A stretch of DNA of 18,792 bases from Arthrobacter sp. (lineage in GTDB: Bacteria; Actinomycetota; Actinomycetes; Actinomycetales; Micrococcaceae): positions 1 to 18,792 of the forward strand of contig JAODMS010000035.1 in the NCBI GenBank assembly GCA_025464925.1, written 5' to 3'. Below, in pieces: positions 4,961-18,792 of the stretch (positions are counted from its first letter, which is position 1; every line of letters starts with the position of its first letter). Below the pieces are notes generated by a model, which was not told where the DNA came from, made no database searches, and saw only the letters and a program-made list of their open reading frames with translations. The translations under genes were made by a program, and so were the position numbers.

Positions 4961-4969
4961 TCGCTTCCC

Positions 4970-4998
4970 ACTAAACCGGATTCGCATCTTTTCCTCAA
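4970..4998 (-). promoter_or_regulatory. Promoter of the ssuBAC-acs operon
   Basis: On the minus strand a -35 box TTGAGG (4993-4998) and a -10 box TTTAGT (4970-4975) are separated by exactly 17 nt, each matching four of six consensus bases. Transcription would start at about 4962-4965, just before the first P1 strand of the riboswitch at 4960, where it is expected. Further upstream (5000-5144) I see only an AT-rich patch around 4995-5030 and the leaderless promoter of the divergent gene. Confidence 0.55.
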
Positions 4999-5132
4999 AT
5001 TAAGGCTCTTTGCGCCGTAATATTCGGTCACCCGGCGGCATTTCTGAGCACACCAGCCATTTGTTCGGAAACGCTTGCCTCGCGGCGGCGTGGCTGCCGG
5101 CCGGAGGTGCGGAGGCTCGGCGGCGCGGCGCG

Positions 5133-5138
5133 TAAGCT
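5133..5138 (+). promoter_or_regulatory. -10 box for a leaderless transcript (CoA-binding protein gene)
   Basis: TAAGCT ends exactly 6 nt before the ATG at 5145, so RNA synthesis should begin at or next to the A of the start codon. There is no Shine-Dalgarno sequence close to this ATG. No clear -35 box is visible. The same spacing is seen at 5609, 7236 and 11234. Confidence 0.55.
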
Positions 5139-5144
5139 GTGCTT

Positions 5145-5570
5145 ATGGCGCACCTGAACGATCCGGCAGTCCTCGAAAGGCTCATGCGCACCAAGGGCAG
5201 GTGGGCCATCGTCGGACTCACCACCAATGAATGGCGTGCCGCCTACGACACCTCCCGGTTCATCCGCGACCGCCTCGGCATGGAGATCATCCCGGTAAAC
5301 CTTCCCGGCGATCCCGTCCACGGCGAAACGGGGTACTCCACGCTGGCCGAGATTCCGGCGACCAAGCAGCCCATCGACGTCGTGGACTGCTTCGTGAATT
5401 CGCAGAAGGTGGGCGCCGTCGTGGACCAGGCGATCGCCGTCGGCGCCAAAGCCGTCTGGCTGCAACTGGGTGTCATCGATGAAGCGGCGGCCGAACGGGC
5501 GAAGGCAGCAGGCCTGGACGTAATCATGAACGCCTGCCCCGCGCAGCACGCCGCCCGCCTCGGCCTATAG
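5145..5570 (+). CDS. CoA-binding domain protein (YccU-like)
   Basis: 141-aa single-domain protein of the CoA_binding_2 type, a Rossmann fold resembling the CoA-binding domain of succinyl-CoA synthetase. The segment WAIVGLTTNEWRAAYDTSRF holds the nucleotide-binding beta-turn, GMEIIPVNL the second strand, and VDCFVNSQKVGAVVDQAI with AVWLQLGVIDEAAAERAKAAG the later core. Family members bind CoA but their physiological role is mostly unknown. I chose the ATG at 5145 over a GTG at 5139, because the -10 box at 5133-5138 places the transcript start on that ATG. It stands alone, divergent from the ssu operon. Confidence 0.85.
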   Translation: MAHLNDPAVLERLMRTKGRWAIVGLTTNEWRAAYDTSRFIRDRLGMEIIPVNLPGDPVHGETGYSTLAEIPATKQPIDVVDCFVNSQKVGAVVDQAIAVGAKAVWLQLGVIDEAAAERAKAAGLDVIMNACPAQHAARLGL

Positions 5571-5608
5571 CCGCGGTACTGCCGGGGTCGAATGCCGGTG
5601 CAGGGCAG

Positions 5609-5614
5609 TAGGCT
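5609..5614 (+). promoter_or_regulatory. -10 box for a leaderless transcript (YjbR-like gene)
   Basis: TAGGCT ends 6 nt before the ATG at 5621. No ribosome binding site precedes that ATG, which fits a leaderless mRNA. This promoter would drive the three-gene unit 5621-7205. Confidence 0.55.
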
Positions 5615-5620
5615 CGAAGC

Positions 5621-6043
5621 ATGGATGCAGCTGCACTCCGGATACTCTGCCTCGGTTTTCCCGGCGTTTTCGAGGACTTTCCGTTCGGTCCGGAGACGTC
5701 CGTGTTCAAGGTGCGGGCCGCGGTGCCCGGGGGAACCCGGCACGAAGCCAAGATGTTCGCCCTGTCCTCGATGGACGACGCCGCCCTGTCGGTGAGCCTC
5801 AAGTGCGAGCCGGCGCTGGCCGAACAGCTGCGTGCTGCCCACCCGGAGATTACCGGAGCCTGGCACCTCAACAAGACTCACTGGAACGGCGTCCGGCTGG
5901 ACGGCTCGTTGCCCGATTCCATGATCTGCGACCTGGTCGAGGACTCCTACGATCTCGTCGTGGCCACCTTGAGCCGGCGCCAGCAGGAACAGCTCGGATG
6001 GGCCAGGCTTGCACAAGGGGCACCCCGGAAGGAGCGGACGTGA
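5621..6043 (+). CDS. MmcQ/YjbR family protein
   Basis: 140-aa protein of the MmcQ/YjbR (DUF419) family, whose members have a CyaY-like fold and are often called DNA-binding without strong proof. Family features are the N-terminal FPGVFEDFPFGPETSVFKV, then KMFALSS, SVSLKCEP, and the C-terminal TGAWHLNKTHWNGVRLDGSLPD, where HLNKTHWN is the usual hallmark. The start ATG is placed by the -10 box 6 nt upstream. The stop overlaps the start of the DUF1990 gene by four bases (GTGA), so the two are translationally coupled. Its specific role is unknown. Confidence 0.85.
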   Translation: MDAAALRILCLGFPGVFEDFPFGPETSVFKVRAAVPGGTRHEAKMFALSSMDDAALSVSLKCEPALAEQLRAAHPEITGAWHLNKTHWNGVRLDGSLPDSMICDLVEDSYDLVVATLSRRQQEQLGWARLAQGAPRKERT

Positions 6044-6588
6044 GCGGTCTCCGGATTGCACCCGGCCAGTTGAACTATCAGGGCATCGGATCCACCGAGC
6101 ACGGCCCGGTGCCCGCGGAGGTCGAGTGCCTCATCTCGCGGGCATACGTGGGGGAAGGTGGAGCGGCGTACCGGCGCGCTGTCCAGGGCATGCTGACCTG
6201 GCAGCTACAGAAGGGGGCCGGGCTGCGAGTCCGCGCGGAGTCTGACGTCGTGGTCCTCGGCACGCGCGTGGTGAGCGGTTTCGGCGTCGGACCGCTCCGG
6301 ATCAACGCGCCCTGCGAGGTCGTCTGGGTCCGCCCCCCGGCACCCGGGGACGGGCCCCAATCGGCAGGATTCGGTTACGGCACGCTGCCGGGCCATCCGG
6401 TCCGCGGTGAAGAGGCTTTCGAGATCTCGATAGATGAGATGGGCAGCGTGGCCATCGAGATCACGGCCTTCGGTGTACCGTCCAACCTGTTTTACGCCGC
6501 CGGCAGCGCCCTTGCCAAGCCGATCCGCAGACTCATCACTTCCCGCTACATTAGGAGTGCGCAAGAACTGGCCGCAGGTGCGAGCTGA
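6040..6588 (+). CDS. DUF1990 domain protein
   Basis: 182-aa protein matching DUF1990 as I remember it: an N-terminal NYQGIGSTEHGPVP, then YRRAVQGMLTWQLQKGAGLRV, GFGVGPLRINAPCEVVWV, FGYGTLPGHPVRGEEAFEIS, and the C-terminal SALAKPIRRLITSRYI. The FGYGTLPGHPxxGEEAF block is the most diagnostic. No function has been established for the family that I know of. The frame is open further upstream, but the start is GTG at 6040: AAGGAG lies 5 nt before it and it overlaps the preceding stop as GTGA. It is the middle gene of the 5621-7205 unit. Confidence 0.82.
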   Translation: MSGLRIAPGQLNYQGIGSTEHGPVPAEVECLISRAYVGEGGAAYRRAVQGMLTWQLQKGAGLRVRAESDVVVLGTRVVSGFGVGPLRINAPCEVVWVRPPAPGDGPQSAGFGYGTLPGHPVRGEEAFEISIDEMGSVAIEITAFGVPSNLFYAAGSALAKPIRRLITSRYIRSAQELAAGAS

Positions 6589-6602
6589 GCAGGAGCAGGC
6601 AG

Positions 6603-7205
6603 ATGCTGGATCAACAGACTCTGGACCGATTGTGGGACTTCGACAATCCGGACCTCTCGGAAGCCCGCTTCCGGGCGGCAGCGGCGGACCCTACGTTCGA
6701 TGCCGACGAACAGGCCGAACTTGCCACCCAGTTGGGCCGGGCCATCGGACTGCAGGGCCGCTTCGAGGAAGCCGACGCGCTGCTGGATTCAATCGACGCC
6801 GACGAACCGACCGTGGCCATCCGGGTGCTGCTGGAACGCGGCCGGGTGCTGAACTCCAGTGGCCACTCAGCGATGGCCGTACCGTTGTTTGAACAGGCCG
6901 CGGAACTCGCGGACCATCTGGTCGAGGAATTCCTGGCGGTGGATGCGCTCCAGATGCTGGCCGTTGCGGACGCCGCCCACGCCGGAACGTGGAACCGCAG
7001 CGCCCTGGAATACGCCTCCACGGCGCACGACGCCACGACCAGGCGGTGGATGCCGGCGTTGCATATCAACCTGGGCCGGGTCCTGCATGCCGCCGGCCGC
7101 TGCGCCGAGGCGTTGGTGGAGTTCCAGCTCGCCGAGCAATGGGCGGATCGGGCTGGTACGCCGCGGCAACAGGAACTGGCGCGGGACGCCATCAACGGCT
7201 GCTGA
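6603..7205 (+). CDS. TPR-like repeat protein
   Basis: 200-aa, probably all-helical cytoplasmic protein. Helix pairs with tetratricopeptide spacing are visible: QLGRAIGLQGRFEEADALLDSI, LLERGRVLNSSGHSAMAVPL, and HINLGRVLHAAGRCAEALVE with FQLAEQWAD, each with the small-large residue pattern (Gly/Ala, then Phe/Leu) of TPR units. No catalytic motif or signal peptide is seen. Such proteins usually act as scaffolds for protein partners, but the partner is unknown. AGGAG lies 7 nt before the ATG. It follows DUF1990 by 14 nt and is the last gene of this small operon. Confidence 0.75.
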   Translation: MLDQQTLDRLWDFDNPDLSEARFRAAAADPTFDADEQAELATQLGRAIGLQGRFEEADALLDSIDADEPTVAIRVLLERGRVLNSSGHSAMAVPLFEQAAELADHLVEEFLAVDALQMLAVADAAHAGTWNRSALEYASTAHDATTRRWMPALHINLGRVLHAAGRCAEALVEFQLAEQWADRAGTPRQQELARDAINGC

Positions 7206-7235
7206 CCACCCTGTCCGGCACTTCACGTCATCGGC

Positions 7236-7241
7236 GACAAT
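7236..7241 (+). promoter_or_regulatory. -10 box for a leaderless transcript (DUF503 gene)
   Basis: GACAAT ends 6 nt before the ATG at 7248. It lies in the 42-nt gap after the TPR-like gene and gives the DUF503 gene its own transcript start on the initiation codon. No Shine-Dalgarno sequence is present. Confidence 0.5.
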
Positions 7242-7247
7242 GGGGTT

Positions 7248-7541
7248 ATGTGGATCGGCTGGATTGAATTCGACCTGCTCCTCGGCGACGTCCACACCCT
7301 CAAAGAGAAGCGTTCCGTGGTGCGGCCCGTGCTCGCCGAGCTCAAGCGCCGTTTCGATGTCTCCGTGACCGAAGCCGGGATGCAGGACCAGTACCGGCGG
7401 ACCATGATCGGGGTCGGGCTGGTGGCGGCGGACCGGGCCCATCTGGTGGAGGTGCTCGCCGCCGTCGAACGCTTCGTGGCCGCACGCCCGGAGATGGAGC
7501 TGCTCAGCGCTCGCCAGCGCGAACTCCGCAGCGACGACTAA
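7248..7541 (+). CDS. DUF503 (YlxP-like) protein
   Basis: 97-aa protein of the DUF503/YlxP family. The N-terminal strand WIGWIEFDLLLGDVHTLKEKRSVVRPVLAEL-type region, with the LKEKRS block, is the family hallmark. It is followed by RFDVSVTEAG, the MIGVGLVAADRAHL strand, and the final helix AVERFVAARPEMELLS. In many bacteria the family is encoded near rbfA and infB and is suspected to act in ribosome maturation. Here it is not in that context, so no role is claimed. The ATG is set by the -10 box 6 nt upstream. The gene ends 5 nt before a strong bidirectional terminator shared with purL. Confidence 0.87.
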   Translation: MWIGWIEFDLLLGDVHTLKEKRSVVRPVLAELKRRFDVSVTEAGMQDQYRRTMIGVGLVAADRAHLVEVLAAVERFVAARPEMELLSARQRELRSDD

Positions 7542-7545
7542 GCAA

Positions 7546-7613
7546 AAAGCGCGGCGGTTTCAGACCTGCGCCCCCGGGATCCGGGGTGCGCTGGTCTGAA
7601 ACCGCCGCGCTTT
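7546..7613. terminator. Long bidirectional terminator palindrome between DUF503 and purL
   Basis: A perfect 21-bp inverted repeat pairs 7546-7566 with 7593-7613. The inner 26 nt continue as an imperfect GC-rich stem around GGATCC. The outer ends are A-rich on the left and T-rich on the right, so on either strand the stem is followed by a short T run. It lies between two convergent genes and can end both transcripts. Confidence 0.88.
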
Positions 7614-7623
7614 CGCGGAACGG

Positions 7624-9933
7624 CTAGCCGAAGTATTTCGGCAAGGTGGCCTCGTGGGCGTCGCGGAGGGCCTCGAGGGACATGGTTTCGACGCCGTTGA
7701 TCTCCAGCTGGCCGCTCTCAGCGTCCACGACGCCGATCCGGAGGTGCGCGAAGCCGCGGGCGGTGCACATGTCCTTGAAGCGGATTTCCTCCGAGCGCGG
7801 GACCGCCACGATGGCACGGCCCTGGGACTCGGAGAACAACGTCGTGAAGAGGTCCACGCCGTCGCGGTCCAGGACATCCTGGAGGGCGATCCGGGCCCCG
7901 ACGCCGTAGCGCAGCGAGGATTCCACGAGGGCCGCCGCGAGGCCGCCTTCGGAGAGGTCGTGGGCGGCGTCCACCATGCCGTCGCGGGAGGCGTTGACCA
8001 GGATCTCGCCCAGCGCGCGTTCGGCGGCAAGGTCAACCTTGGGCGGCAGCCCGCCGAGGTGCCCGCGCATGTTGGACCATTCGGAGCCGTCCAGCTCTGC
8101 CGCCGTCGTCCCCAGCAGGTAGATGGCCTGGCCGTCCTCGCGCCAGCCCGACGGCGTGCGCCGAGCGACGTCGTCGAATTTGCCCAGCACGGCCACCACC
8201 GGGGAGGGGTGGATCGGGGTTGCGCCGGTCTGGTTGTACAGCGAGACGTTGCCGCCGGTGACCGGGATGCCCAGCACCATGCAGGCGTCCGAGAGGCCTC
8301 GGATGGCCTCGGCCAGCTGCCACATCACATCGGGGTCCTCGGGCGAGCCGAAGTTCAGGCAGTCGCTGACGGCCATCGGCACTGCGCCGGAAGTGGCGAC
8401 GTTGCGGTACGCCTCGGCCAGTGCCAGCTGTGCGCCGGAGTACGGATCGAGGTAGGTGTAGCGGCCGTTGGCGTCGGTCGCCAGGGCCACACCCAGGCCG
8501 GTTTCCTCGTCCACCCGGACCACTCCGGCGTCGTCCGGCATGGCCAGCGCGGTGTTGCCGCCGACGTAGCGGTCGTACTGGTCGGTGATCCAGGACTTGT
8601 CGCACATGTTGGGCGAGGCAATGAGCTCGGCAATTGCGGCGGCCAGTTCCTCGGGGGTGGACGGGCGGCCGGCGTCCTGCACGGATCCGGTGAAAACATC
8701 GGCCTGCAAGGAGTCCTGCCACTCGGGGCGGGCATACGGACGGTCGTAGACCGGACCGTCGTGGGCCACGGTCCGCGGGTCCACGTCGACAATGATTTCG
8801 CCGTCCCAGGTGATGATCAGGCGGCCGGTATCCGTCACCTCGCCCAGCCAGGAGTACTCCACAGCCCATTTGTCCATGACTGCTTCAAAAGCGGCGACGT
8901 TTTCGGGGGTGACCACGGCCATCATGCGTTCCTGCGACTCGGACATCAGGATTTCGCCCGGGGTCAGGGTGGGGTCCCGCAGCAGGACGGAGGTCAGTTC
9001 AACTTCCATGCCGCCGTCGCCGTTGGAGGCGAGCTCGGACGTGGCGCAGGAGATGCCTGCGGCGCCCAGGTCCTGGATACCCTCAACCAGTGATCCCTTG
9101 AACAGTTCGAGGCAGCACTCGATCAGGACCTTCTCGGCGAACGGGTCGCCCACCTGGACGGCGGGGCGCTTGGATGGCTTGGTGTCGTCGAAGGACTCCG
9201 ACGCCAGCACGGAAGCGCCGCCGATTCCGTCACCGCCGGTGCGGGCACCGAACAGCACCACCTTGTTGCCCTTGCCGGAGGCGTTGGCGAGGCGGATGTC
9301 CTCATGGCGCATCACGCCGACTGCCAGCGCGTTGACCAGCGGGTTGCCCTGATAAACGGAATCGAAGACCATTTCGCCGCCGATGTTGGGCAGCCCCAGG
9401 GAGTTGCCGTAGCCGCCGATGCCGGCCACGGCGCCGTGCATGACGCGGGCCGTGTCCGGGTGGTCAATGGCACCGAAACGCAGCGGATCCATCACGGCCA
9501 CCGGGCGGGCGCCCATCGAGATGATGTCCCGGACGATGCCGCCGATGCCGGTTGCGGCACCCTGGTAGGGCTCCACGAACGACGGCGAATTGTGGGACTC
9601 GATCTTGAACGTCACGGCCCAGCCGTCGCCGAGATTGGTGACGCCGGCATTTTCGCCGATCCCCACCAGCATGTATTTATTCATCTCTTCGGTCACCTTG
9701 TCGCCAAACTGGCGCAGGTGGTTCTTGGAGGACTTGTAGGAGCAGTGCTCGCTCCACATCACGGAGTACATGGCGAGCTCGGCGCCGGTCGGGCGGCGGC
9801 CCAGGACCTTAACGACCTCGTCGAACTCGTTCTGCTTCAGGCCCAGTTCGGCCCAGGGAAGCTCGGTGTCCGGGGTCTTGGCCGCGTTTTCCACGGTGTC
9901 GATGTTGAATTTCTTGGTGGTGTCGATGCTCAT
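7624..9933 (-). CDS. purL: Phosphoribosylformylglycinamidine synthase subunit PurL
   Basis: Large subunit of the three-part FGAM synthase (EC 6.3.5.3), which converts FGAR to FGAM with ATP and ammonia in de novo purine synthesis; 769 aa, normal for small-type PurL. The AIR-synthase-like fold is clear: an N-terminal [15 protein letters not shown], then [19 protein letters not shown], the glycine-rich [26 protein letters not shown], the second half beginning near [10 protein letters not shown], and [14 protein letters not shown]. The start ATG at 9933 overlaps the purQ stop as ATGA, with GGAGG 7 nt upstream. Third gene of purSQL. Its glutaminase partner is PurQ, and PurS links the two. Confidence 0.98.
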
Positions 9934-10706
9934 TTGGCGCCTCCCACAATCTTGTTCAGGACGGAGGTGAAGAAGCCGAGGCCCTCGGTATCGGAACCGC
10001 CGACTCCGTCGAGGGACTCCGGGCCGAACCCTGCCTCGACCGCGTGCTCCGGGTGCGGCATGAGGCCCACCACGTTGCCGGCGGCGTTGGAGATGCCGGC
10101 GATGTCGCGGCGGGAGCCGTTCGGGTTGAAGCCCACGTAGCGGAACACGACACGGCCCTCCGCCTCGAGGGCGTCCAGGGTCTTCTCGTCCGCGATGTAC
10201 TGGCCGTCCTGGTTCTTCAGCGGGACGGTGATTTCCTGGCCCGGCTGGTAGTCCCCGGTCCAGTCCGTGCTGTTGTTCTCCACCCGGAGGATCTGGTCAC
10301 GGCACATGAACTTCAGGTGGTCGTTCTTGATCATCGAGCCCGGCAGGAGGTGGGACTCGGTCAGGATCTGGAAGCCGTTGCAGATGCCGAGCACGGGAAG
10401 CCTGGCGTCCGAGTTGGCGGCATCGATGACCTTGGCCATCAGCGGCGCGAAGCGTGCGATGGCGCCGGCGCGGAGGTAATCGCCGTAAGAGAAGCCGCCG
10501 GGAATCACGACGGCGTCGACGTCGCCCAGGGTCGTGTCGGCGTGCCACAGCGCCACCGGGGTGGCGCCCGCCAGGCGGACAGCACGGGCGGCGTCGCGGT
10601 CGTCCAGCGTGCCGGGGAAGGTAATGACGCCGATTCGCGCGCCCGCGAGGCTGCGGGCGTCCGGGGCGCCGGCGAGGGACTCGCCGATCAGGGGGAGTTC
10701 AGTCAT
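9930..10706 (-). CDS. purQ: Phosphoribosylformylglycinamidine synthase subunit PurQ (glutaminase)
   Basis: Class I glutamine amidotransferase that supplies ammonia to PurL; 258 aa. The nucleophile is Cys109 in [13 protein letters not shown], and the rest of the triad is His218/Glu220 in [27 protein letters not shown] is also typical. The frame is open further upstream, but ATG at 10706 is preferred: GAGG lies 6 nt before it and it begins one base after the purS stop (TGAGATG). This gives about 20 residues ahead of the usual start of the fold ([10 protein letters not shown]). No closer start codon is available, so the extension seems real. It overlaps purL by four bases. Confidence 0.97.
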
Positions 10707-10707
10707 C

Positions 10708-10959
10708 TCAGGCCTCGACGACCTCGACGTTGACGACGTCCTCGATAACCGGGTTGGACAGCAGGGTCGCCGCGGCATCGCGGGCCTGGGCCAGGATTTC
10801 CTCGGTCACCTCGCCGTCGACCAGAAGTTCAAAGCGCTTGCCCTGCCGGACGGCGCTAAAGGCGGTGAAGCCCAGCCGGGGGAGTGCACCCACGATGGCC
10901 TTCCCCTGCGGGTCCAGAATCTCGGGCTTGGGCATGACGTCGACAACGATCCGGGGCAT
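10708..10959 (-). CDS. purS: Phosphoribosylformylglycinamidine synthase subunit PurS
   Basis: 83-aa accessory subunit that bridges PurQ and PurL in the FGAM synthase complex. Family features are the N-terminal strand [17 protein letters not shown], the [16 protein letters not shown] block, and the C-terminal [15 protein letters not shown]. The ATG at 10959 has AGGAG about 8 nt upstream. The frame extends eight residues further back, but without a ribosome binding site. First gene of purSQL. The promoter must lie in the 286-nt gap to the divergent small gene at 11246. Confidence 0.96.
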
Positions 10960-11047
10960 CCGGCAACTCCTGTGCGTGAGCATTGGGTAAGGGCGCAGCG
11001 GAGTGGTGCCGTCTCACGCCGGTCTTCTGCCTGGCTTTGAACATCAA

Positions 11048-11070
11048 CGTGAACATTAGACAGCGTGAAC
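11048..11070 (-). repeat. CGTGAAC direct repeats upstream of purS (possible operator)
   Basis: Two copies of CGTGAAC (11048-11054 and 11064-11070) start 16 nt apart, about 90-110 nt before the purS start. On the minus strand a -10-like TAATGT lies between them. This could be the purSQL promoter with a repeat-type operator, but no good -35 box is visible and the repeats are short. The rest of the gap 10960-11245 shows nothing else except the -10 box of the gene at 11246. Confidence 0.25.
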
Positions 11071-11233
11071 GGGCGCTCCGCGAGCTTGCATGCCCATTCT
11101 ACCGGCCCCGGCCCGTCCCGCCGCATCGACGGCGGTACGGTGAAGCTGTACCCGGGAAACGGCACGGCAACCGGCGCCTCGAACAGGGCGGGAGACGGCA
11201 ACGGCGGCTATGGTCCCGGAGGTGCGCCGGAAG

Positions 11234-11239
11234 TAGGAT
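11234..11239 (+). promoter_or_regulatory. -10 box for a leaderless transcript (61-aa gene)
   Basis: TAGGAT ends 6 nt before the ATG at 11246. No Shine-Dalgarno sequence is present between them, which fits a leaderless mRNA. Confidence 0.5.
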
Positions 11240-11245
11240 GTGCGC

Positions 11246-11431
11246 ATGTCTGGGAAATCAAAATCCGTGCTGTTGCCCGTAGTCGCTGCCGCCGTGTTCA
11301 CGGGCCTTGGCCGCATGGTCCTGCAAAAGATCAAGGCGGACCGCTCCGCCCGGCACGGCAATGTGCCGGGGCCTCTCGATGACAAGACCCGCGCCTGGAT
11401 CAGCGAGGTAGTTCGCACCCCGCGGCAGTAG
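11246..11431 (+). CDS. Small hypothetical protein, possible membrane anchor
   Basis: 61-aa protein that I do not recognise. A basic start (MSGKSKS) is followed by a short hydrophobic stretch SVLLPVVAAAVFTGLG, which could be one membrane helix or an amphipathic anchor. The rest is polar (QKIKADRSARHGN), with DDKTRAWISEVVRTPRQ at the end. An in-frame GTG at 11240 is the alternative start, but the -10 box 6 nt before the ATG argues for 11246. Codon use looks like that of the neighbours. It is divergent from purS and ends 258 nt before the subtilase start. Confidence 0.6.
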   Translation: MSGKSKSVLLPVVAAAVFTGLGRMVLQKIKADRSARHGNVPGPLDDKTRAWISEVVRTPRQ

Positions 11432-11504
11432 GACGAACGCGCGCCTGGGGGAGACCGGAACCGCGGGGTCTGGCCTCTCCGGCGCGCCCGTAATCACCAT
11501 AAGT

Positions 11505-11555
11505 CAAATTGCGTGACAAATTTGATTTTGCTCTTGGTTTTCTATGTCATATACC
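11505..11555 (+). promoter_or_regulatory. AT-rich promoter-like region of the subtilase gene
   Basis: The stretch of about 11500-11580 is far richer in A and T than its surroundings. A -35-like TTGCTC (11528-11533) and -10-like TATACC (11550-11555) are separated by 16 nt. Just upstream lies an inverted repeat, CAAATT (11505-11510) with AATTTG (11519-11524), which could bind a regulator. Several alternative hexamers exist, so the exact promoter is uncertain. Confidence 0.4.
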
Positions 11556-11594
11556 ACTCTCAGTCTGTACTGTTTGAATCGGCTGGTATCCCGT

Positions 11595-11628
11595 CGGGGC
11601 TGCACCTGTCACTGCAGGTGCAGCCCCG
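11595..11628 (+). other. Perfect 14-bp hairpin in the subtilase leader
   Basis: CGGGGCTGCACCTG (11595-11608) pairs completely with 11615-11628 around a 6-nt loop. It lies downstream of the likely promoter and 61 nt before the GTG start. No T run follows, so it is not a normal intrinsic terminator. It could stabilise the mRNA, act as an attenuator, or bind a regulator. Confidence 0.7.
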
Positions 11629-11689
11629 CCAGCTTGCTTGTCCCGGCAATGTCGCTGGGCCCGTTCCTTATGAAAGGTTCAAACCACTC

Positions 11690-14600
11690 GTGAAATCACC
11701 AGGAAAGAGCTTCCTTCGAAGCGGGGGACTCCGGAGGGCCGCGGCACTGACCCTGGGCTTACCGGTTCTTCTGTCCACAGTCGCCATCGCACCCGCCAGC
11801 GCAACCCCGACCCAGGGCACGCCACTGGCCGGAGTTGCGCAGAAGAATCTGAATCCGAACAACTACAAGGACGGCCGCTACATCGTCGTCCTGGCCGAGA
11901 AGCCGGCGGCAACCTACGACGGAGGCACGGTGGGGCTGCCGGCCACCAAGCCGGAATCCGGCCGGAAACTGGACGCCAACAAGGCTGAAGTCAAGCAGTA
12001 CCAGGCGCACCTCGAGCACAAGCAGACCGAGGTCGCCGGGCAGCAGAACGTGCAGATCCAGCGCCAGTTCACGGCGGCGATCAACGGCTTCAGCGCCAAG
12101 CTGACGGCCGACCAGGCCATCAAGCTGGCCAAGGACCCCGGCGTGCTGGTGGTCGCTCCGGATACGGAAAACGCGCCTGACTATTCCAGCACCGAGTTCC
12201 TGAAGCTCAGCGGCGCCAACGGCACCTGGAACACCAAATTCGGCGGCCAGGCCGCGGCCGGCAAGGGCGTCGTCGTCGGCGTTATCGACACCGGCTACAC
12301 ACCGTCCAACCCCTTCTTCGCCGGCGAACAGGTCAAGCCGCTCGTCGGCGAGCCCGTCGTCGGTGAGCCCTACCGCACCGACGACGGCAAGATCGCCATG
12401 CTCAAGTCCGACGGCGACACCTTCGTGGGCGAATGCCAGAAGGGCCAGGACTTCGACGGTTCCGCCTGCAACTCCAAGGTGCTGAGCGCCCACTACTTCG
12501 CCGACGACTTCGAGAAGTATGTTCCGCCCGAGGACCGCGCCCCGCAAGAACTGCTGTCCCCGATTGACGTCGACAGCCACGGCACGCACACGGCCAGCAC
12601 CGCCGCCGGCAAAGCCAACGTCGAGACGGTTGTCGACGGCCGCAGCTTCGGCGTGACCAGCGGCATTGCGCCGGCTGCGAAGCTTTCCATCTACAAGGTC
12701 TGCTGGGAAGACACCAATCCCGATTCCGGCGGCTGCTACTCCTCCGCCGCCATCGATGCGATCAACCAGGCAATCCTCGACGGAGTGGATGTCCTCAACT
12801 ACTCCATCTCCGGCGCCACGGACACCACCACTGATCCGGTTTCGCTGGCGTTCCTGTCCGCCGCCTCGGCCGGAATCTTCGTCGCCGTCTCGGCCGGCAA
12901 CTCCGGTCCGACGGCCAGCACGGTCAACCACGGCGCGCCGTGGCTCACTACGGTTGCCGCCAGCAGCTTCTCCCAGGAGTTGCAGGGCACGGCCGAGTTC
13001 TCCGACGGCAGCAAGTTCCGCGGTGCCAGCATCATGAACAGCCAGGTCTCGAACACCGGCGTCGTGCTGGCCGCCAGCGCGGCTGCCGCGGGAGCAGCCG
13101 ACGCGGCACTGTGCGGTCCTGACACCCTGGATCCCGCCAAGGTTTCCGGCAAGGTTGTGGTCTGTGACCGCGGCGTCATTGACCGCGTCGCCAAGAGCGC
13201 CGAGGTTAAGCGTGCCGGCGGCGTCGGCATGATCCTGGTGAACCTGAGCGATTCCTCGCTGGACACGGACAAGCACGCCGTTCCGACCGTCCACGTGAAC
13301 CCGCCGGCCACCGAGACCATCAAGGCCAAGGTCACCGCCAACCCGGCCCTCAAGGTTTCCCTGGTCAACAAGGACACCACCGGGCTGCCCGCCGAGGCCC
13401 AGCCGCAGATCGCCGGCTTCTCGTCCCGCGGCCCGCTGCTGGCCACCGACTCTGACCTGCTGAAGCCGGATGTTGCCGCTCCCGGCGTCGCAGTTCTGGC
13501 CGGCGTCTCGCCGATCGGCACGGGCGGGGACGACTTCGGCTTCCTGTCCGGCACCTCGATGGCAGCCCCGCACGTTGCCGGCTTCGGTGCGTTGATCCTC
13601 GGCAAGAACCCGACATGGTCCCCGGCCACGGTGAAATCCGCAATGATGACCACTGCCGGTGACGTCAAGCTCGCTGACGGCAGCAAGAATACCGATGTCC
13701 TGGCCACCGGTGCCGGCCACGTGGACCCGGCCCGGGTGCTGGATCCGGGCCTGGTCTACGACGCCAACGAGGCCGATTACCTGGCGTTCATGCGGGGCAC
13801 CGGCTTCGAGCTGGGCATCCCTGGCATCGGCACCACCAAACCCCGCGACATGAACGTTCCGTCCTTCTCGCTGGGCAACCTGACCGGCAAGATCGAGGTC
13901 ACCCGCACGGTGACGGCGCTGACCCCGGGCGTCTACCGGGCCAAGGCTGATGTGCCGGGCGTGAAGGTCAAGGTGACCCCCAGCGTCCTGAACTTCAGTG
14001 CCGCCGGAGAGAAGCGCACCTTCAAGGTGTCCTTCGAAAACCAGCGCGCTGCCCTCGGCGAGTTCGCCATGGGTTCGCTGACCTGGCAGGGCGCCAACAA
14101 GAATGTAACCTCCCCGATCGCGGTCCGTCCGCAGTCCGCTGTGGCCGCGAAGGATGTCGCCTTCACCTCTGAAGGAGGCACCGGCTCCGGCGCCATCAAC
14201 GTCGTCTCCGGCACCGATCGCCCGATCGATATGACGCTCGACGGGCTCTCCAAGGCTGATTCCACGGCCGTGGAGCTGATTCCGGGGCAGTTCACCGGCG
14301 TTACGGACGCCTCGAACCACGTCAAGACGGTCCAGGTTCCGGCCGGCAGCCCGCTGGCCAAGTTCTCGGTCCTGTCCTCGGATCCGAACGCCGACTTTGA
14401 CATGTTCCTCATGACACCCGAGGGCCCGCTCACGGCGGCCACGAGTTCCGCCAGCGAGTCGGTATCCATTCCCAACCCGGCCCCGGGCGAGTACACGATC
14501 TACGCAAACCTGTATGCCAGCCCCAACGGGCAGGCCACCAAGGGAAGCGTCGATGCGTCCGTGCTGGGTCCGAACGTGGGCAACGCGACGCTCACGCCGA

Positions 14601-14941
14601 ACCCGCTGCGGCTGGCCAACGGCACCTCCGGAAAAGTCACCCTGAACTGGAAGGGCCTGGCCGCCGGTTCCTACGTCGGCCGCGTCACGTTCGCCGGAGC
14701 AAGTGATCCGACGTTCGTCAGCGTGCTGGTTACGCCGGCCGGCGTCACGGTGGTTCCGCCGACGTCGGAGGACCAGGAGAGCGATGATGGTCCGGGGCAC
14801 GATTCCGGCGAGGACGACCACGGTAAGAAGGACGACCACAAGGACACGAAAGAAAAGAAGGACAAGGGCAAGAAAGTGAAGAAGGAGACAGGCAAGATCC
14901 AGAACGGCGAGCTGGGCGACGCCCCGGACAACGCAGTCTAG
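11690..14941 (+). CDS. Secreted subtilisin-like serine protease (S8) with propeptide, PA and C-terminal domains
   Basis: 1083-aa exported subtilase. A signal peptide (basic start, hydrophobic core about 17-34, cleavage near APASA, residue 38) precedes an I9 propeptide (about 63-158). The catalytic residues are Asp200 (GVIDTGY), His297 (DSHGTHTAS), Asn404 (SAGNSG) and Ser623 (SGTSMAAPH). A PA domain is inserted at about 474-550. An Fn3-like domain (about 720-813) and a second beta-rich segment (about 880-947, DFDMFLMTPEG) follow. The last 60 residues are highly charged, first Asp/Glu/His-rich, then Lys-rich. No LPxTG or transmembrane anchor is seen. I chose GTG at 11690, because the signal peptide starts there and GAAAGG lies upstream. 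The frame stays open back to 11513, but that would put the signal peptide inside the protein. Substrate unknown. Confidence 0.92.
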   Translation: MKSPGKSFLRSGGLRRAAALTLGLPVLLSTVAIAPASATPTQGTPLAGVAQKNLNPNNYKDGRYIVVLAEKPAATYDGGTVGLPATKPESGRKLDANKAEVKQYQAHLEHKQTEVAGQQNVQIQRQFTAAINGFSAKLTADQAIKLAKDPGVLVVAPDTENAPDYSSTEFLKLSGANGTWNTKFGGQAAAGKGVVVGVIDTGYTPSNPFFAGEQVKPLVGEPVVGEPYRTDDGKIAMLKSDGDTFVGECQKGQDFDGSACNSKVLSAHYFADDFEKYVPPEDRAPQELLSPIDVDSHGTHTASTAAGKANVETVVDGRSFGVTSGIAPAAKLSIYKVCWEDTNPDSGGCYSSAAIDAINQAILDGVDVLNYSISGATDTTTDPVSLAFLSAASAGIFVAVSAGNSGPTASTVNHGAPWLTTVAASSFSQELQGTAEFSDGSKFRGASIMNSQVSNTGVVLAASAAAAGAADAALCGPDTLDPAKVSGKVVVCDRGVIDRVAKSAEVKRAGGVGMILVNLSDSSLDTDKHAVPTVHVNPPATETIKAKVTANPALKVSLVNKDTTGLPAEAQPQIAGFSSRGPLLATDSDLLKPDVAAPGVAVLAGVSPIGTGGDDFGFLSGTSMAAPHVAGFGALILGKNPTWSPATVKSAMMTTAGDVKLADGSKNTDVLATGAGHVDPARVLDPGLVYDANEADYLAFMRGTGFELGIPGIGTTKPRDMNVPSFSLGNLTGKIEVTRTVTALTPGVYRAKADVPGVKVKVTPSVLNFSAAGEKRTFKVSFENQRAALGEFAMGSLTWQGANKNVTSPIAVRPQSAVAAKDVAFTSEGGTGSGAINVVSGTDRPIDMTLDGLSKADSTAVELIPGQFTGVTDASNHVKTVQVPAGSPLAKFSVLSSDPNADFDMFLMTPEGPLTAATSSASESVSIPNPAPGEYTIYANLYASPNGQATKGSVDASVLGPNVGNATLTPNPLRLANGTSGKVTLNWKGLAAGSYVGRVTFAGASDPTFVSVLVTPAGVTVVPPTSEDQESDDGPGHDSGEDDHGKKDDHKDTKEKKDKGKKVKKETGKIQNGELGDAPDNAV

Positions 14942-14959
14942 GCGGCACTCCGGAACGCA

Positions 14960-14994
14960 GCAACGGCCGGCGGGCTCTCCCCGCCGGCCGTTGC
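14960..14994. terminator. Terminator after the subtilase gene
   Basis: A perfect 15-bp GC-rich stem pairs 14960-14974 with 14980-14994 around a 5-nt loop, 19 nt after the subtilase stop. The tail is only weakly T-rich (CGTTTA). It lies between convergent genes and may also stop transcription from the minus-strand operon ending at 15037. Confidence 0.8.
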
Positions 14995-15036
14995 CGTTTA
15001 AGCCGTCTTAGTCCGGGTGCCCGGATCCGGGCGGGT

Positions 15037-15408
15037 TCAGATCGCGCCGGTGGAACCGGCAACCCCGCCCAGCAGCGGCGCCATGGCGCGCCAGCGGGCG
15101 ATCTCGCAGCCGTCGGTGCGGCTGAACCGGCTGCGCACTTCGCGCCCCAGGAACCAGCCCGTCACCACGGCGGTCTGCGGGCCGCCGTACTGCTGAGTGC
15201 AGATCCTGCCCGGCGCCGGCTTGGGGAAAAAGAGGCCTTCCCCGTGCCGCTGCACGGCCTCGAGGGCGGCGGCGGGATCCGGCAGCGTGGACGCGCTGGA
15301 GACGATGCCGTCGCTGGCCACCAGACGGAAGGTGTACCCCGGGGCTCCCGGAGACTCCGTCAGGCGGACGGTGAGATCGACGTCGTTCGGCGCGTGGATG
15401 GCGGTCAC
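15037..15408 (-). CDS. SSI-like protein without signal peptide and with one disulfide pair
   Basis: 123-aa protein related to the Streptomyces subtilisin inhibitor family and to the lipoprotein at 16375. The shared block is CTQQYGGPQ (70-78), then VVTG, GREV, and TDGCEIARW with Cys101. Cys70 and Cys101 match the pair that braces the reactive-site loop in SSI. The other SSI cysteines are replaced (Ala31 in TFRLVA, Leu49 in AALEA). There is no signal peptide or lipobox, so it is probably cytoplasmic, where a disulfide would be unusual. GTG at 15408 overlaps the stop of the upstream gene as GTGA, and AAGGA precedes it. Last gene of the operon. An inhibitor role is inferred from the fold only. 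Confidence 0.68.
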   Translation of the reverse strand: MTAIHAPNDVDLTVRLTESPGAPGYTFRLVASDGIVSSASTLPDPAAALEAVQRHGEGLFFPKPAPGRICTQQYGGPQTAVVTGWFLGREVRSRFSRTDGCEIARWRAMAPLLGGVAGSTGAI

Positions 15409-16388
15409 CGCTGTCCTTCCGGGCCTTCTTGAGACTGCGGCGCCGCGGCCCCGAGGGCCTCCGCGCCCAATGCCTGCAGCAGCGGCGTCAGCTCCCGCAG
15501 GAGCCGGTGCCGCAGTTCCTGCGACTCGGCGGCGAATGCCCGCTGGTATGCAACGTACTCGGCCTTGCCGTCCGGCGTCTCGATCCTGATGGCGGGATAG
15601 CCCCACTCGCTCAGCTCATAGGGGGAGGCCTGCATGTCCATGGCCCGGATCCGCCAGGAGAGCTCGAAGCAGTCCATCACGAGTTCGCTGGGCAGTGCCG
15701 GCGCCAGCTTGTAGGCCCACTTGTACAGGTCCATGTTCGCGTGAAGGCAGCCGGGCTGTTCCATGGCCCGCTGGTTCTCCCTGCTGGGCTCGAGGCTGTT
15801 CAGCGGAACGGCGTCAGGGGTGTAGAAGCGGAAGGCATCGAAGTGGGAGCAGCGGATCCGGTTCTCCTCCACCACCTGGTCCGTGCGGGCGGCACCGAGC
15901 CGTAGCCGGAGGTATTCGTGGCGCAACTCGAACTTGTCCTGCCGGTACACCATGGCCCACTCGTGGAGCCCGAAGCAGCCGAACTGGGCGGGCCTTGCGG
16001 CGGTCCCGGAGAGAATGATGCCTGCAAACCGGAGCGCCTCCCGGCGGTCGCGCAGGAAAGCAGCGACGTCGACGGTGACGGCCGCGGCGCCCGCCGGCAG
16101 CCCGGCGGCGGCGAGTTCGCCGTCGTCGGCGCCGCGGTAATACTTCCAGCCGGTCCGCTCAGCCGCAACAGGTCCGGAGAGCACGACGCCGGCGCCCGGG
16201 TGCCAGCGCAGCAGCTGGCCGGGCTTCTGGGTGTAATAGGTGAAGAGGAAGTCCTCAACCGGGTGCTTATGCCCGGCGGACCGCCGGGCAAGGTAGGGAT
16301 CCGCGTAGCGTCGGACGCGCTGCTGGTAGGCCGCCTGGTGCTGCAGCCAGTCTTCTTGCGGAAAGTGCAACAGCTTAGACAGCTCCAC
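15405..16388 (-). CDS. Conserved actinobacterial protein of unclear function
   Basis: 327-aa soluble protein. Strong conserved-looking blocks are KHPVEDFLFTYY, LLRWHPGAGVVL, GCFGLHEWAMVY, LRHEYLRLRLG, RCSHFDAFRFYTP, EQPGCLHANMDLYKWAYKLAP and DCFELSWRIRAMDMQASPYEL. The His, Cys, Glu and Asp residues in these blocks would suit an enzyme, possibly metal-dependent. From memory, similar proteins are labelled 3-methyladenine DNA glycosylase in actinobacterial genomes, but I see no motif of any known glycosylase fold and do not rely on that label. The GTG start at 16388 overlaps the preceding lipoprotein gene by 14 nt and the stop overlaps the next gene by four, so it sits tightly between the two SSI-like genes. 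Confidence 0.72.
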   Translation of the reverse strand: MELSKLLHFPQEDWLQHQAAYQQRVRRYADPYLARRSAGHKHPVEDFLFTYYTQKPGQLLRWHPGAGVVLSGPVAAERTGWKYYRGADDGELAAAGLPAGAAAVTVDVAAFLRDRREALRFAGIILSGTAARPAQFGCFGLHEWAMVYRQDKFELRHEYLRLRLGAARTDQVVEENRIRCSHFDAFRFYTPDAVPLNSLEPSRENQRAMEQPGCLHANMDLYKWAYKLAPALPSELVMDCFELSWRIRAMDMQASPYELSEWGYPAIRIETPDGKAEYVAYQRAFAAESQELRHRLLRELTPLLQALGAEALGAAAPQSQEGPEGQR

Positions 16389-16920
16389 CGGTAGCGCCCA
16401 GTACGTCCTTCGCGGCGTTCCAGGCGGCGATTTCGCAGCCGTCGCGCAGGCTGAACGTCACCTCCACGGACCTGCCGTCGACGACGCCGGTCACGATTGA
16501 CTGTTGCGGACCGCCGTACTGCTGCGTGCAGGCCCGGCCCTTCGCCGGCCAGGCGCTGATGATGGCCGGGTTGGTTTTCAGGGCAGCGCATGCGGCGGCG
16601 GCGTTGGGGTGCTGGCTTTCGGCCGCCGGAACCCCGTTCTGGCACACCAGGGTGAAGTTGCTCGGAGCCGCGGTGTCGGAGGGCTTGACCATGATGGCCA
16701 GTTCGGCGTTGCCCTGCCCTGGTCCGGAAGTGAGGGGGGCCGCGGAGGGGGAGGGGGCCGGCGAGGTCGTTTCGGTGTCCGGGGAGGGGGTGCCGGCGGA
16801 GGGACTCGCGGCGGTGCCCGTCGGGGAGGGGGACGGGCTGGTCCCGCCGCCCGGGGTGCAGGCCGCCAATCCGGCGACCGCCATCAGAACGAGCGCCGCG
16901 TGGCTCAGCTGCTTGCGCAT
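16375..16920 (-). CDS. Lipoprotein with SSI-like (subtilisin inhibitor) domain
   Basis: 181-aa exported lipoprotein. A signal peptide ends in the lipobox LAAC with Cys21. A Ser/Pro/Thr-rich linker (22-68) follows, then an SSI-like domain (about 70-175). Cys93, Cys111, Cys131 and Cys162 have spacings 18, 20 and 31, close to 15, 21 and 30 in Streptomyces SSI (Cys35, 50, 71, 101). Text matches include TLVCQNG with HPNAAAACAAL, and VVDGRSVEVTFSLRDGCEIAAWN. The SSI scissile bond Met73-Val74 corresponds to Gln133-Gln134 here (CTQQYGGP), so classical subtilisin inhibition is uncertain. ATG at 16920 has GGAGG 7 nt upstream. It lies 27 nt after the MarR-type gene. It may instead be a surface protein that only reuses the fold. 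Confidence 0.75.
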   Translation of the reverse strand: MRKQLSHAALVLMAVAGLAACTPGGGTSPSPSPTGTAASPSAGTPSPDTETTSPAPSPSAAPLTSGPGQGNAELAIMVKPSDTAAPSNFTLVCQNGVPAAESQHPNAAAACAALKTNPAIISAWPAKGRACTQQYGGPQQSIVTGVVDGRSVEVTFSLRDGCEIAAWNAAKDVLGATGGAV

Positions 16921-16947
16921 CAGCGTCCTCCTCTGTTTCGAACCAGT

Positions 16948-17439
16948 CTACCGCCGGGGCGCAGCTTCGGGCGCTGTCCTCGTGGCGGCGATCAGGTCCA
17001 TCATGGACGCGTGCAGCTGGCCGACCTGGTCCCGGGTCAGGCCCAGCCGGGCCATCATCGCGGCGGGGACCGCCGCCGCCACCTGGCGAAGGGATTCGCC
17101 GCGGGGGGTTAGCCGCACGTCGAGGGTGCGCTCGTTGCCTTCCATGCGCTGGCGGGTGATCAGGCCGGCCGTTTCGAGGCGGCGCAGGAGGGGCGAGATG
17201 GTCGCCGGCTCCTGGGCGAGGGCCTCGCTGATGTCGCGGACGGAGCGCGGGCTGGATTCCCAGAGGCACAGCATGACGAGGTATTGGGGGTGGGTCAGTC
17301 CGAGCTTGTCCAGCACCGGTTTGTACGCGCCCACCACGCTCCGGGAGGCCACCGTGAGGGCGAAGCAGAGCTGCTGTTGCAGCAGGAGGTCGTCCTCGGC
17401 GGTGGGGTCTCCGCTGGGTTTCGTTGTCACATCGGCCAT
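16948..17439 (-). CDS. MarR-family regulator, OhrR-like
   Basis: 163-aa winged-helix repressor, first gene of the operon. It resembles the organic-peroxide sensor OhrR: QQQLCFALTVASR places Cys25 where OhrR has its reactive cysteine. AYKPVLDKLGLTHPQYLVMLCLWE has the conserved Tyr39, while the second cysteine-contacting Tyr of Bacillus OhrR is His50 here. EPATISPLLRRLETAGLITRQR is the recognition helix and wing, with NERTLDVRLTPRG the rest of the wing. No C-terminal second cysteine is present, so it would be a one-Cys type. No ohr gene lies in this window. GGAGGAG precedes ATG 17439, and a perfect palindrome at 17458-17469 is a likely operator for itself and the divergent gene. Confidence 0.88.
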   Translation of the reverse strand: MADVTTKPSGDPTAEDDLLLQQQLCFALTVASRSVVGAYKPVLDKLGLTHPQYLVMLCLWESSPRSVRDISEALAQEPATISPLLRRLETAGLITRQRMEGNERTLDVRLTPRGESLRQVAAAVPAAMMARLGLTRDQVGQLHASMMDLIAATRTAPEAAPRR

Positions 17440-17457
17440 GCCCGCTCCTCCAAATAG

Positions 17458-17469
17458 TTAGTGCACTAA
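17458..17469. promoter_or_regulatory. Palindromic operator between the MarR gene and the divergent small gene
   Basis: TTAGTGCACTAA is a perfect 12-bp palindrome in an AT-rich spot 19 nt before the marR start and 50 nt before the plus-strand gene at 17519. For the plus strand it lies just upstream of a -10-like TACACT (17479-17484). For the minus strand it covers the likely start point after TACGCT (17475-17480). This is the usual arrangement for autoregulation by a MarR dimer. Confidence 0.65.
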
Positions 17470-17518
17470 TGATTAGCGTACACTGGTGTCATTGTCTTGT
17501 TCGTAGGAAAGGATAGCG

Positions 17519-17743
17519 ATGGCCAAGGAAAACGGCGCCCAGAGGTTCATGCGGGCAACCGGGAAGCTCCGTGCAATCTTCGGGCCGGCCAACCGCAGTT
17601 CCCTTGTTCATGAGATGACGGAGCAGAACAAGGAACTGCTGGAGCAGCGGCAGGCCGAGACCCAGCAGTGGGAGACGGTCCGGCGGCCCGACGGCAGCAC
17701 GTATGTCGTGCCCCGCAACCCTGACGACAAATCCCTGCGGTAG
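17519..17743 (+). CDS. Small hypothetical protein, paralogue A (FGPA motif)
   Basis: 74-aa hydrophilic protein of unknown function. The N-terminus has QRFMRATGKLRAIFGPANR, a basic amphipathic stretch. A helical, Glu/Gln-rich middle follows (EMTEQNKELLEQRQAE, probably a coiled coil), and then WETVRRPDGSTYVVPR, which could be a small beta hairpin. It shares the RFM..T.KLR..FGPA.R block and the C-terminal Y.V.R pattern with the protein at 17889. AAAGGA lies close before ATG 17519. It is divergent from marR across the palindromic operator, so it may be under the same repressor. Confidence 0.78.
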   Translation: MAKENGAQRFMRATGKLRAIFGPANRSSLVHEMTEQNKELLEQRQAETQQWETVRRPDGSTYVVPRNPDDKSLR

Positions 17744-17774
17744 AACGTCTTCCGCCCGCCCGGAACGGTCCCTG

Positions 17775-17797
17775 ACGACCCGCCTTGGCTGGGTCGT
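17775..17797 (+). terminator. Weak terminator-like hairpin after paralogue A
   Basis: ACGACCC (17775-17781) pairs with GGGTCGT (17791-17797) around 9 nt and is followed by TTC. The stem is short, so termination may be partial. Confidence 0.4.
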
Positions 17798-17814
17798 TTC
17801 GGCGCCTTCAGGCG

Positions 17815-17820
17815 TAAAAT
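17815..17820 (+). promoter_or_regulatory. -10 box of paralogue B gene
   Basis: TAAAAT is the best -10 hexamer in this intergenic gap and would start RNA near 17827, leaving a leader of about 60 nt before GTG 17889. The -35 region is not clear. Confidence 0.45.
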
Positions 17821-17888
17821 GAGGGCACAGGAACCATCCTGCCAGCGCAGAACTGCTTGACCTGTAACCAGGGAAGGGGGTGGGAATT

Positions 17889-18107
17889 GTGGCGCAATAT
17901 GCCATCCGCTTCATGCAGCGGACCGACAAGCTAAGGTTCTTTTTCGGACCCGCGACTCGGGGTGACGCCGAAGCGCCGGTGGTCCATCGGCACGATGACT
18001 TCGAGCACGCCTCGGAAGAAGACCTGGCGTCTTTTGAGGTGGAGACGGACTCGCAAGGCCATCACTACGCGGTCCGCCGGGAAGACCTCTGGAAGGAAGA
18101 GATCTGA
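17889..18107 (+). CDS. Small hypothetical protein, paralogue B (FGPA motif)
   Basis: 72-aa hydrophilic protein of unknown function, paralogous to the protein at 17519. IRFMQRTDKLRFFFGPATR lines up with QRFMRATGKLRAIFGPANR, and FEVETDSQGHHYAVRRED with WETVRRPDGSTYVVPRNP. The middle is acidic (HDDFEHASEEDLAS) and differs from the Gln-rich middle of its neighbour. GTG at 17889 is preferred over GTG at 17880, because AAGGGGG lies 8-9 nt before it and it aligns with the start of the paralogue. It ends before a strong bidirectional terminator shared with lysC. Confidence 0.75.
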   Translation: MAQYAIRFMQRTDKLRFFFGPATRGDAEAPVVHRHDDFEHASEEDLASFEVETDSQGHHYAVRREDLWKEEI

Positions 18108-18110
18108 CAG

Positions 18111-18137
18111 CCCTTTCCGGCCTCGCGCGTGAAAGGG
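18111..18137 (+). terminator. Upstream hairpin behind paralogue B
   Basis: CCCTTTC (18111-18117) pairs with GAAAGGG (18131-18137) around 13 nt, directly after the stop codon. Its arms can also pair with parts of the larger terminator that follows, so it may be an alternative fold. Confidence 0.35.
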
Positions 18138-18147
18138 AGAGCATGAA

Positions 18148-18175
18148 AAAGGGAGCGGCATCTGCCGCTCCCTTT
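18148..18175. terminator. Bidirectional terminator between paralogue B and lysC
   Basis: A perfect 12-bp stem (18148-18159 with 18164-18175) and a 4-nt loop. On the minus strand it is followed by a run of five T, a classical intrinsic terminator for lysC. On the plus strand the T run is three bases. Confidence 0.88.
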
Positions 18176-18205
18176 CGCGTTGTCAGGTTCGTGCGGGCCG
18201 CGGGA

Positions 18206-18724
18206 TTAGCGGCCGGTGCCGCCGTAGACCGTCGCCTCGTCCTCGCTGTCCAGATCGAAGGCCTTATGGATGGCGCGCACGGCGTCGTCGAGCAAATCCG
18301 CGTGCGTCACCACGGAGATGCGGATCTCCGAGGTGGAGATCATGTTGATGTTGATCCCCGCCGCGGACAGCGCCGCGAAGAACCGTGCGGAGACGCCCGG
18401 GTGGGAGCGCATGCCGGCGCCGATCAGGGACAGCTTGCCGATCTTCTCGTTGTACTCGATGTTCTCGAAGCCGATCTGCCCCTGGGCGGCGCGGAGGGCG
18501 GCCAGCGCGTCGGCGCCCTCGACGATCGGCAGGGTGAAGGAGATGTCCGTCCGGCCGGTCCCGTGGGTGGAGACGTTCTGCACGATCATGTCGATGTTCG
18601 AGTGCGCATCCGCGATCACCTGGAAGATCGCCGCGGCCTTGCCCGGGATGTCCGGTACGCCGACAACCGTGACCTTGGCTTCGGAACGGTCGTGTGCAAC
18701 GCCGGAGATGATTGGCTGCTCCAA
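18206..18724 (-). CDS. Possible aspartokinase beta subunit from an internal start
   Basis: Within lysC, TTG at 18724 is preceded by GAGGGAG at a spacing of about 5 nt. Starting there gives 172 residues that contain just the two ACT domains. Corynebacterium aspartokinase makes a beta subunit of, as I recall, the same length from an internal start at the same place. TTG is a weaker start codon than the one used there, so expression is uncertain. Confidence 0.5.
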   Translation of the reverse strand: MEQPIISGVAHDRSEAKVTVVGVPDIPGKAAAIFQVIADAHSNIDMIVQNVSTHGTGRTDISFTLPIVEGADALAALRAAQGQIGFENIEYNEKIGKLSLIGAGMRSHPGVSARFFAALSAAGININMISTSEIRISVVTHADLLDDAVRAIHKAFDLDSEDEATVYGGTGR

Positions 18725-18792
18725 GGCAACTCCCTCTTGGGTCTTGATCTTGTCGTCGGCGCTGGGCAGGACCCAGGTGCCTTCGTTCTGGC
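18206..18792 (-). CDS. lysC: Aspartokinase, C-terminal regulatory part (5' end outside window)
   Basis: Only the last 194 residues are visible. They hold the two ACT domains of aspartokinase, which bind lysine and threonine for feedback control of the first step of the aspartate pathway (Lys, Thr, Met, diaminopimelate). ISGVAHDRSEAKVTVVGVPD begins the first ACT unit, then NIDMIVQNVS and TDISFTLP. KLSLIGAGMRSHPGVSARFF and NINMISTSEIRISVV form the second, and DEATVYGGTGR is the usual actinobacterial end. The visible upstream residues run in frame without a stop to the window edge, so the catalytic domain should lie beyond it. An internal TTG at 18724 may start a separate beta subunit. Confidence 0.95.
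   Translation of the reverse strand, partial: QNEGTWVLPSADDKIKTQEGVALEQPIISGVAHDRSEAKVTVVGVPDIPGKAAAIFQVIADAHSNIDMIVQNVSTHGTGRTDISFTLPIVEGADALAALRAAQGQIGFENIEYNEKIGKLSLIGAGMRSHPGVSARFFAALSAAGININMISTSEIRISVVTHADLLDDAVRAIHKAFDLDSEDEATVYGGTGR

Follow-up and report, generated by a model that had tools for sequence, protein, structure and literature searches.

The window analysed here is an 18,792-nucleotide (nt) stretch from Arthrobacter sp. (GCA_025464925.1, contig JAODMS010000035.1, positions 1 to 18,792, forward strand). It carries two genes, SSI1 and SSI2, whose proteins resemble the Streptomyces subtilisin inhibitor (SSI; PF00720; MEROPS family I16). The original prediction, made from the sequence alone, described one of these proteins as exported and the other as apparently cytoplasmic, and reading of the window confirms the coordinates, frames and shared motifs claimed for both. 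SSI1 and SSI2 form a row with the middle gene between them (Table 1). SSI2 starts with the GTG at 15408, the four nucleotides GTGA are common to its start and the middle-gene stop, and the middle gene and SSI1 overlap by 14 nt; because of these overlaps, the row looks translationally coupled.

Table 1. Features of the SSI1-SSI2 locus in the window
Feature	Position	Strand	Basis
SSI1, predicted lipoprotein with Subtilisin inhibitor-like domain (PF00720), loop CTQQYGGPQ	16375..16920	-	profile search and reading
Conserved middle gene	15405..16388	-	open reading frame (ORF); product without Pfam or NCBIfam match
SSI2, signal-less SSI-fold paralogue, 123 amino acids	15037..15408	-	sequence, alignment, predicted structure
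Hairpin rich in G+C, main stem of 15 pairs, separating the SSI2 and subtilase genes	14957..14997		z about -6.3, both strands
Subtilase ORF (Peptidase_S8, Inhibitor_I9 propeptide, PA, fn3_6), candidate target	11513..14941	+	Pfam
MarR-family regulator, OhrR-like	16948..17439	-	27 nt upstream of SSI1, same strand

Relation of the two proteins to SSI

SSI1 scores 26.2 bits to PF00720, above the cut-off of 23.9. Its N-terminus reads ...VAGLAAC (lipobox LAAC) and continues in a Ser/Thr/Pro-rich linker; by this sequence, "predicted lipoprotein" is a better name for SSI1 than plain "exported". The domain holds C93, C111, C131 and C162, the four SSI cysteines claimed for the exported copy, whose pairing is putative. 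Four cysteines follow the lipobox in every SSI1 homologue (119/119).

SSI2 is 41% identical to SSI1 over 111 residues (E = 7e-23, single comparison). Its only cysteines, C70 and C101, align with the second SSI1 pair, while the first pair is replaced by Ala31 and Leu49 (117 and 119 of 121), just as first described. In an alignment with SSI structures through a mixed profile, P1-P1′ is Gln72-Gln73 in SSI2 and Gln-Gln in SSI1 too, and the reactive loop of both is one residue longer than that of SSI (YGGP versus YD-P). The P1′ residue of SSI is Val. Its P1 is given as Met, and outside SSI itself the subtilisin inhibitors are described as usually having Thr at P2 (PMC9623506); P2 in the SSI1/SSI2 loop is Thr.

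The predicted structure of SSI2 matches the SSI fold, and its best structural matches are the Streptomyces inhibitors sermetstatin (4hwx, 4hx2, 4hx3) and SSTI (6i0i), at 16-20% identity in the structural alignments. The view that both proteins are SSI-like therefore holds, by the PF00720 score for SSI1 and by identity to SSI1 and the predicted fold for SSI2. With the SSI family SSI2 shares this fold, a loop set behind a cysteine and the second cysteine pair; it differs in the absent signal peptide, the first pair, the longer loop, the Gln-Gln at P1-P1′ and the lack of a Pfam match. Up to E 1 it matches no Pfam family, and so neither PF00720 nor PF12690, and it reaches 17.4 bits to the NCBIfam "protease inhibitor protein", far under the cut-off of 292. 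Within the mixed alignment, 9/45 members match PF00720 at E 0.01. We do not file SSI2 as a plain SSI member because the Pfam, two-pair and signal-peptide tests fail despite the predicted fold. Solved SSI structures are reached only when the mixed profile includes exported relatives, and because sequence-only links to them fail, the family link depends on the model and on how closely SSI2 resembles SSI1. The sole structure match of the SSI2 single sequence, a leucine-rich-repeat protein, looks like chance.

Recurrence of the gene row and its neighbours

The comparison covers 80 loci titled Arthrobacter, Pseudarthrobacter or Paenarthrobacter (160 places were confirmed, and the best 80 are used), protein searches (the best 120 of 586, 514 and 984 matches) and a chosen part of the loci from family, order and class samples, which was read. 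Signal peptides were judged by our own hydrophobicity and lipobox rule (LPAC-type lipoboxes included) rather than by a trained predictor, and any SSI1 row preceding the middle gene was classed as exported, including those in which the rule saw no lipobox (12/116, for the most part loci that are cut or have a disrupted frame). Two 10-base filler stretches (L130, L178) were left out.

The order SSI1, middle gene, SSI2 on one strand is found in 78 of the 80 Arthrobacter-group loci; of the other two, one is cut by the contig (L041) and one holds an exported lone form (L074). A search for the paired genes elsewhere had been proposed, and the pair does recur in other genomes of the group. OhrR lies upstream in 75/78 triple loci, 6 of them with a second subtilase between OhrR and SSI1, and a convergent subtilase occurs somewhere downstream in the locus in 74/78. 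Ten loci have two different subtilases flanking the row, one per side (L036, L037, L044, L048, L052-L054, L182, L188, L190).

In the wider samples, an SSI match at E 0.001 occurs in 165/295 genomes of the family sample, leaving 130/295 without any, and in 52/347 of the order sample; a PF00720 match occurs in 111/394 of the class sample. The middle gene is present in 289/295 family-sample genomes. Four arrangements are seen among the chosen loci: an SSI1 lipoprotein with a signal-less SSI2; a single four-cysteine lipoprotein following the middle gene; a lone two-cysteine lipoprotein beside a convergent subtilase, where in 12/12 cases with context the other locus genes were undetected nearby; and SSI1 and SSI2 adjacent without the middle gene (L111, L112, L179). 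The 27 order-sample loci beyond the family sample (L151-L177) are all of four-cysteine type, 26 with a lipobox by our rule, and among 66 PF00720 places in the class sample 59 pass the signal threshold and 7 fall just under it with leaders evident on reading. Among the loci examined, no signal-less form was met outside the Arthrobacter group and the family sample.

As for the neighbours in the window, the subtilase gene is convergent with SSI2, and the strong hairpin between them is possibly a two-way terminator; a terminator scan does not list it because few T's follow the stem. The annotated start of the subtilase ORF is probably too early, to judge from a signal-like stretch about 70 codons in. 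The OhrR-like regulator scores 126 bits to NF052638, under the cut-off of 200, and no ohr-like gene is seen among the ORFs listed beside it, the small ORFs having had no profile search. The putative public name of the middle gene is "3-methyladenine DNA glycosylase".

Location, cysteines and selection

SSI2 is very probably a cytoplasmic protein. In the window its frame is open upstream as far as the GTG at 15606, and our rule finds no signal-like stretch in this open part. Among relatives, an in-frame stop leaves room for no more than 25 codons ahead of the domain in 34/108 signal-less loci, and for no more than 18 in 24 of these, and only three residues precede the Leu12 column in 6/162 signal-less proteins. 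In loci with a longer open frame, the best hydrophobic 12-mer upstream scores 1.64, against mostly more than 2 for lipoprotein leaders. Seven Streptomyces-type leaders score 1.58-1.65 by the same measure, so 12-mer hydrophobicity alone is not decisive.

Cysteine numbers point in the same direction. An odd number, which leaves an unpaired thiol, is found in 23/100 distinct signal-less domains versus 0/163 exported ones, and in the protein sets in 61/161 versus 0/119; the Fisher value for the contrast (4e-11) is overstated, because the rows are related. The upstream-stop, odd-cysteine and P1 counts leave out the duplicates L081-L086, L092, L097, L106 and L108, and everything from L191 onward; L175 and L181 are also left out of the first two (for upstream stops, from the signal-less set). 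In the odd-cysteine count, the signal-less L057 and L100 are entered with four cysteines, including one before the likely start. The claim that the second protein lacks a signal peptide, also from an upstream start, is thus upheld by the missing signal-like stretch and by the in-frame stops in relatives, and its proposed cytoplasmic location gains from odd cysteine counts occurring only in signal-less domains.

For the history of the cysteines, the wider tree samples one in four of L001-L080, with a few additions, for SSI1 and for signal-less SSI2, without L081-L090 and without domains shorter than 95 residues or containing X; the tree of the two- and zero-cysteine proteins is also without L146, and of the SSI1 rows it keeps only 18 four-cysteine rows. 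The two- and zero-cysteine proteins form one clade (support 97/88), in which 46 rows are signal-less and 13 exported. The wider tree suggests a root among four-cysteine forms; with such a root, the first cysteine pair would have disappeared close to the base of the clade. A history in which the signal peptide was lost once is not rejected. At 4950-5600 of L181, an exported two-cysteine relative is present in broken form.

One genus goes further, with a zero-cysteine SSI2 in 4/4 genomes (L127, L141, L145, L146) that has no cysteine pair and whose loop is rebuilt, longer and devoid of CTQQ. The model of a zero-cysteine member still matches SSI, with a mean predicted local distance difference test score (pLDDT) of 71 and a loop under 50. 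In L146 the reading frame of this copy is broken.

Rates of change were estimated with the Nei-Gojobori method on pairs with dS 0.15-2, of which a fixed subsample was taken. SSI2 has a median dN/dS of 0.26 (323 pairs) and SSI1 one of 0.27 (322 pairs), and three zero-cysteine pairs give 0.11, 0.30 and 0.34. SSI2 is under purifying selection. In 162 signal-less proteins CTQQYGGP, D99-G100-C101-E102, R105 and W106 are invariant. The original prediction read the loss of a whole cysteine pair as adaptation rather than decay; upkeep in place of decay is borne out by the dN/dS of SSI2, whereas a tie between the loss and the cytoplasm is not, because the 13 exported two-cysteine relatives in the same clade lack the pair too.

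P1 is fixed as Gln in SSI2 (100/100 readable loops), while SSI1 in loci with SSI2 has Gln 58, Glu 21, Met 17, Asp 2, Thr 1 and Leu 1; on each side 4/104 loops could not be read, owing to loop inserts in SSI1 and zero-cysteine members in SSI2. The SSI1 proteins of L001, L002, L004 and L020 carry such an insert, of about 12 residues between CTQQ and YGGP. The proposal that Gln-Gln marks a new target is not supported, since exported relatives, too, often have Gln at P1.

Possible functions of SSI2

The reading that we favour, tentatively and with rather less than even confidence, is that SSI2 is an intracellular serine-protease inhibitor that acts through its SSI loop and whose most plausible target is the convergent subtilase. 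It is put forward because the loop is invariant, because the subtilase linkage persists where the other locus genes are undetected and because SSI1 provides an outside twin. Taken by themselves, its parts differ in strength: we would give SSI2 about an even chance of being an inhibitor, and the neighbouring subtilase is a possible but rather doubtful target. SSI2 would be a cytoplasmic paralogue of the actinobacterial SSI lipoproteins, descended from an exported inhibitor line that may have lost the first cysteine pair before the signal or together with it. Its N-terminus would now lie near the first domain strand, with its start coupled to the preceding gene. The Cys-Thr-Gln-Gln-Tyr loop would most likely enter a serine-protease active site and block it in a substrate-like manner, as in SSI. 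The exported subtilase would be caught by SSI2 if it were active before or during export, while membrane-anchored SSI1 would cover the same subtilase outside.

Several points weigh against this interpretation. The SSI2 model fits the SSI structures loosely (TM-score about 0.5, root-mean-square deviation 4-7 Å), and neither the single sequence nor an SSI2-only profile finds a solved SSI structure. The loop cysteines are invariant, yet their pairing is not normal in a reducing cytoplasm, and an open loop should inhibit less well. The zero-cysteine genus keeps its SSI2 gene without the canonical loop, which therefore cannot explain every SSI2 member. No subtilase lies within 3 kb in 4/87 loci, one of which (L063) has one about 5 kb away. 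Finally, most loci come from close relatives and the counts are not independent.

Another reading would make SSI2 a redox-switched intracellular inhibitor, in which the loop cysteines would pair only under oxidative stress and stiffen the CTQQY loop. Protease control would then be turned on by the signal that the OhrR-like regulator senses, with SSI1 as the permanently oxidised outside twin. We regard this reading as a long shot, and the zero-cysteine genus, which also has OhrR in its locus, counts against it.

The strongest competitor of the intracellular-inhibitor reading, though itself unlikely, holds that SSI2 is intracellular but has given up protease inhibition, its SSI fold now serving a different binding role. 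The zero-cysteine proteins, which keep an SSI-like model and low dN/dS with a rebuilt loop, would fit such a role. A P1 that is fixed in SSI2 and variable in SSI1 is likewise unusual for an inhibitor tracking changing proteases, and D99-G100-C101-E102 and R105-W106 are kept without exception, just like the loop, though this motif is strong in exported relatives too. However, a non-inhibitor would not obviously need CTQQYGGP, which all of the signal-less proteins (162/162) retain.

It is improbable that SSI2 leaves the cell by a route that needs no classical signal peptide and works there as SSI1 does. It shares with exported forms the presence of both loop cysteines, and the 13 relatives in the same two-cysteine clade are predicted lipoproteins, but SSI2 retains neither leader nor long linker, odd cysteine numbers occur only in signal-less forms, and the same gene row already has an exported SSI1. 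Just as improbable is a role as partner or regulator of the middle-gene product through coupled translation. The SSI2 domain starts a median of 2 nt from the middle-gene stop codon (105 loci); however, the middle gene is near-universal in the family sample, where so many genomes have no SSI match, which makes it an unlikely partner, and three genomes have SSI1 and SSI2 together without it. A decaying duplicate, to which the broken frames in L146 and L181 might point, is scarcely credible given the low dN/dS, the invariant motifs and the arrangement kept in nearly all of the Arthrobacter-group loci.

The known protein nearest to the role proposed for SSI2 is IPI of Bacillus subtilis (BsuPI, PF12690), which is reported to inhibit an intracellular subtilisin (PMC3901451). 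The likeness is one of role: the fold of IPI is immunoglobulin-like, and SSI2 has no PF12690 match. The same paper calls intracellular peptidase inhibitors rare and questions the intracellular nature of IPI, since translation from another start would give it a signal peptide (PMC3901451); for SSI2 this doubt is largely met by the in-frame stops in relatives. No cytoplasmic SSI was found in the open literature searched, although subscription papers lie mostly outside it, so that absence there proves little.

SSI1 and SSI2 are a natural pair in which a single gene row encodes the same inhibitor fold twice, once for the outside of the cell and once, probably, for the inside. The relatives with two, one or no cysteine pair allow the refitting of a disulfide-stabilised inhibitor for the cytoplasm to be tested, and the pair also lets one ask whether bacteria guard against their own secreted subtilases before export. 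Homologues from Arthrobacter and Pseudarthrobacter, among the matches listed, are named "serine protease inhibitor" or "subtilase-type protease inhibitor", names that say nothing on the location, pairing or cysteine loss of the SSI2 homologues. Others (P0004, P0008, P0091 and more) carry the public name "aminoglycoside phosphotransferase (APT) family kinase protein", an evident misnaming; one member of the mixed alignment has a weak APH match (E 0.0032).
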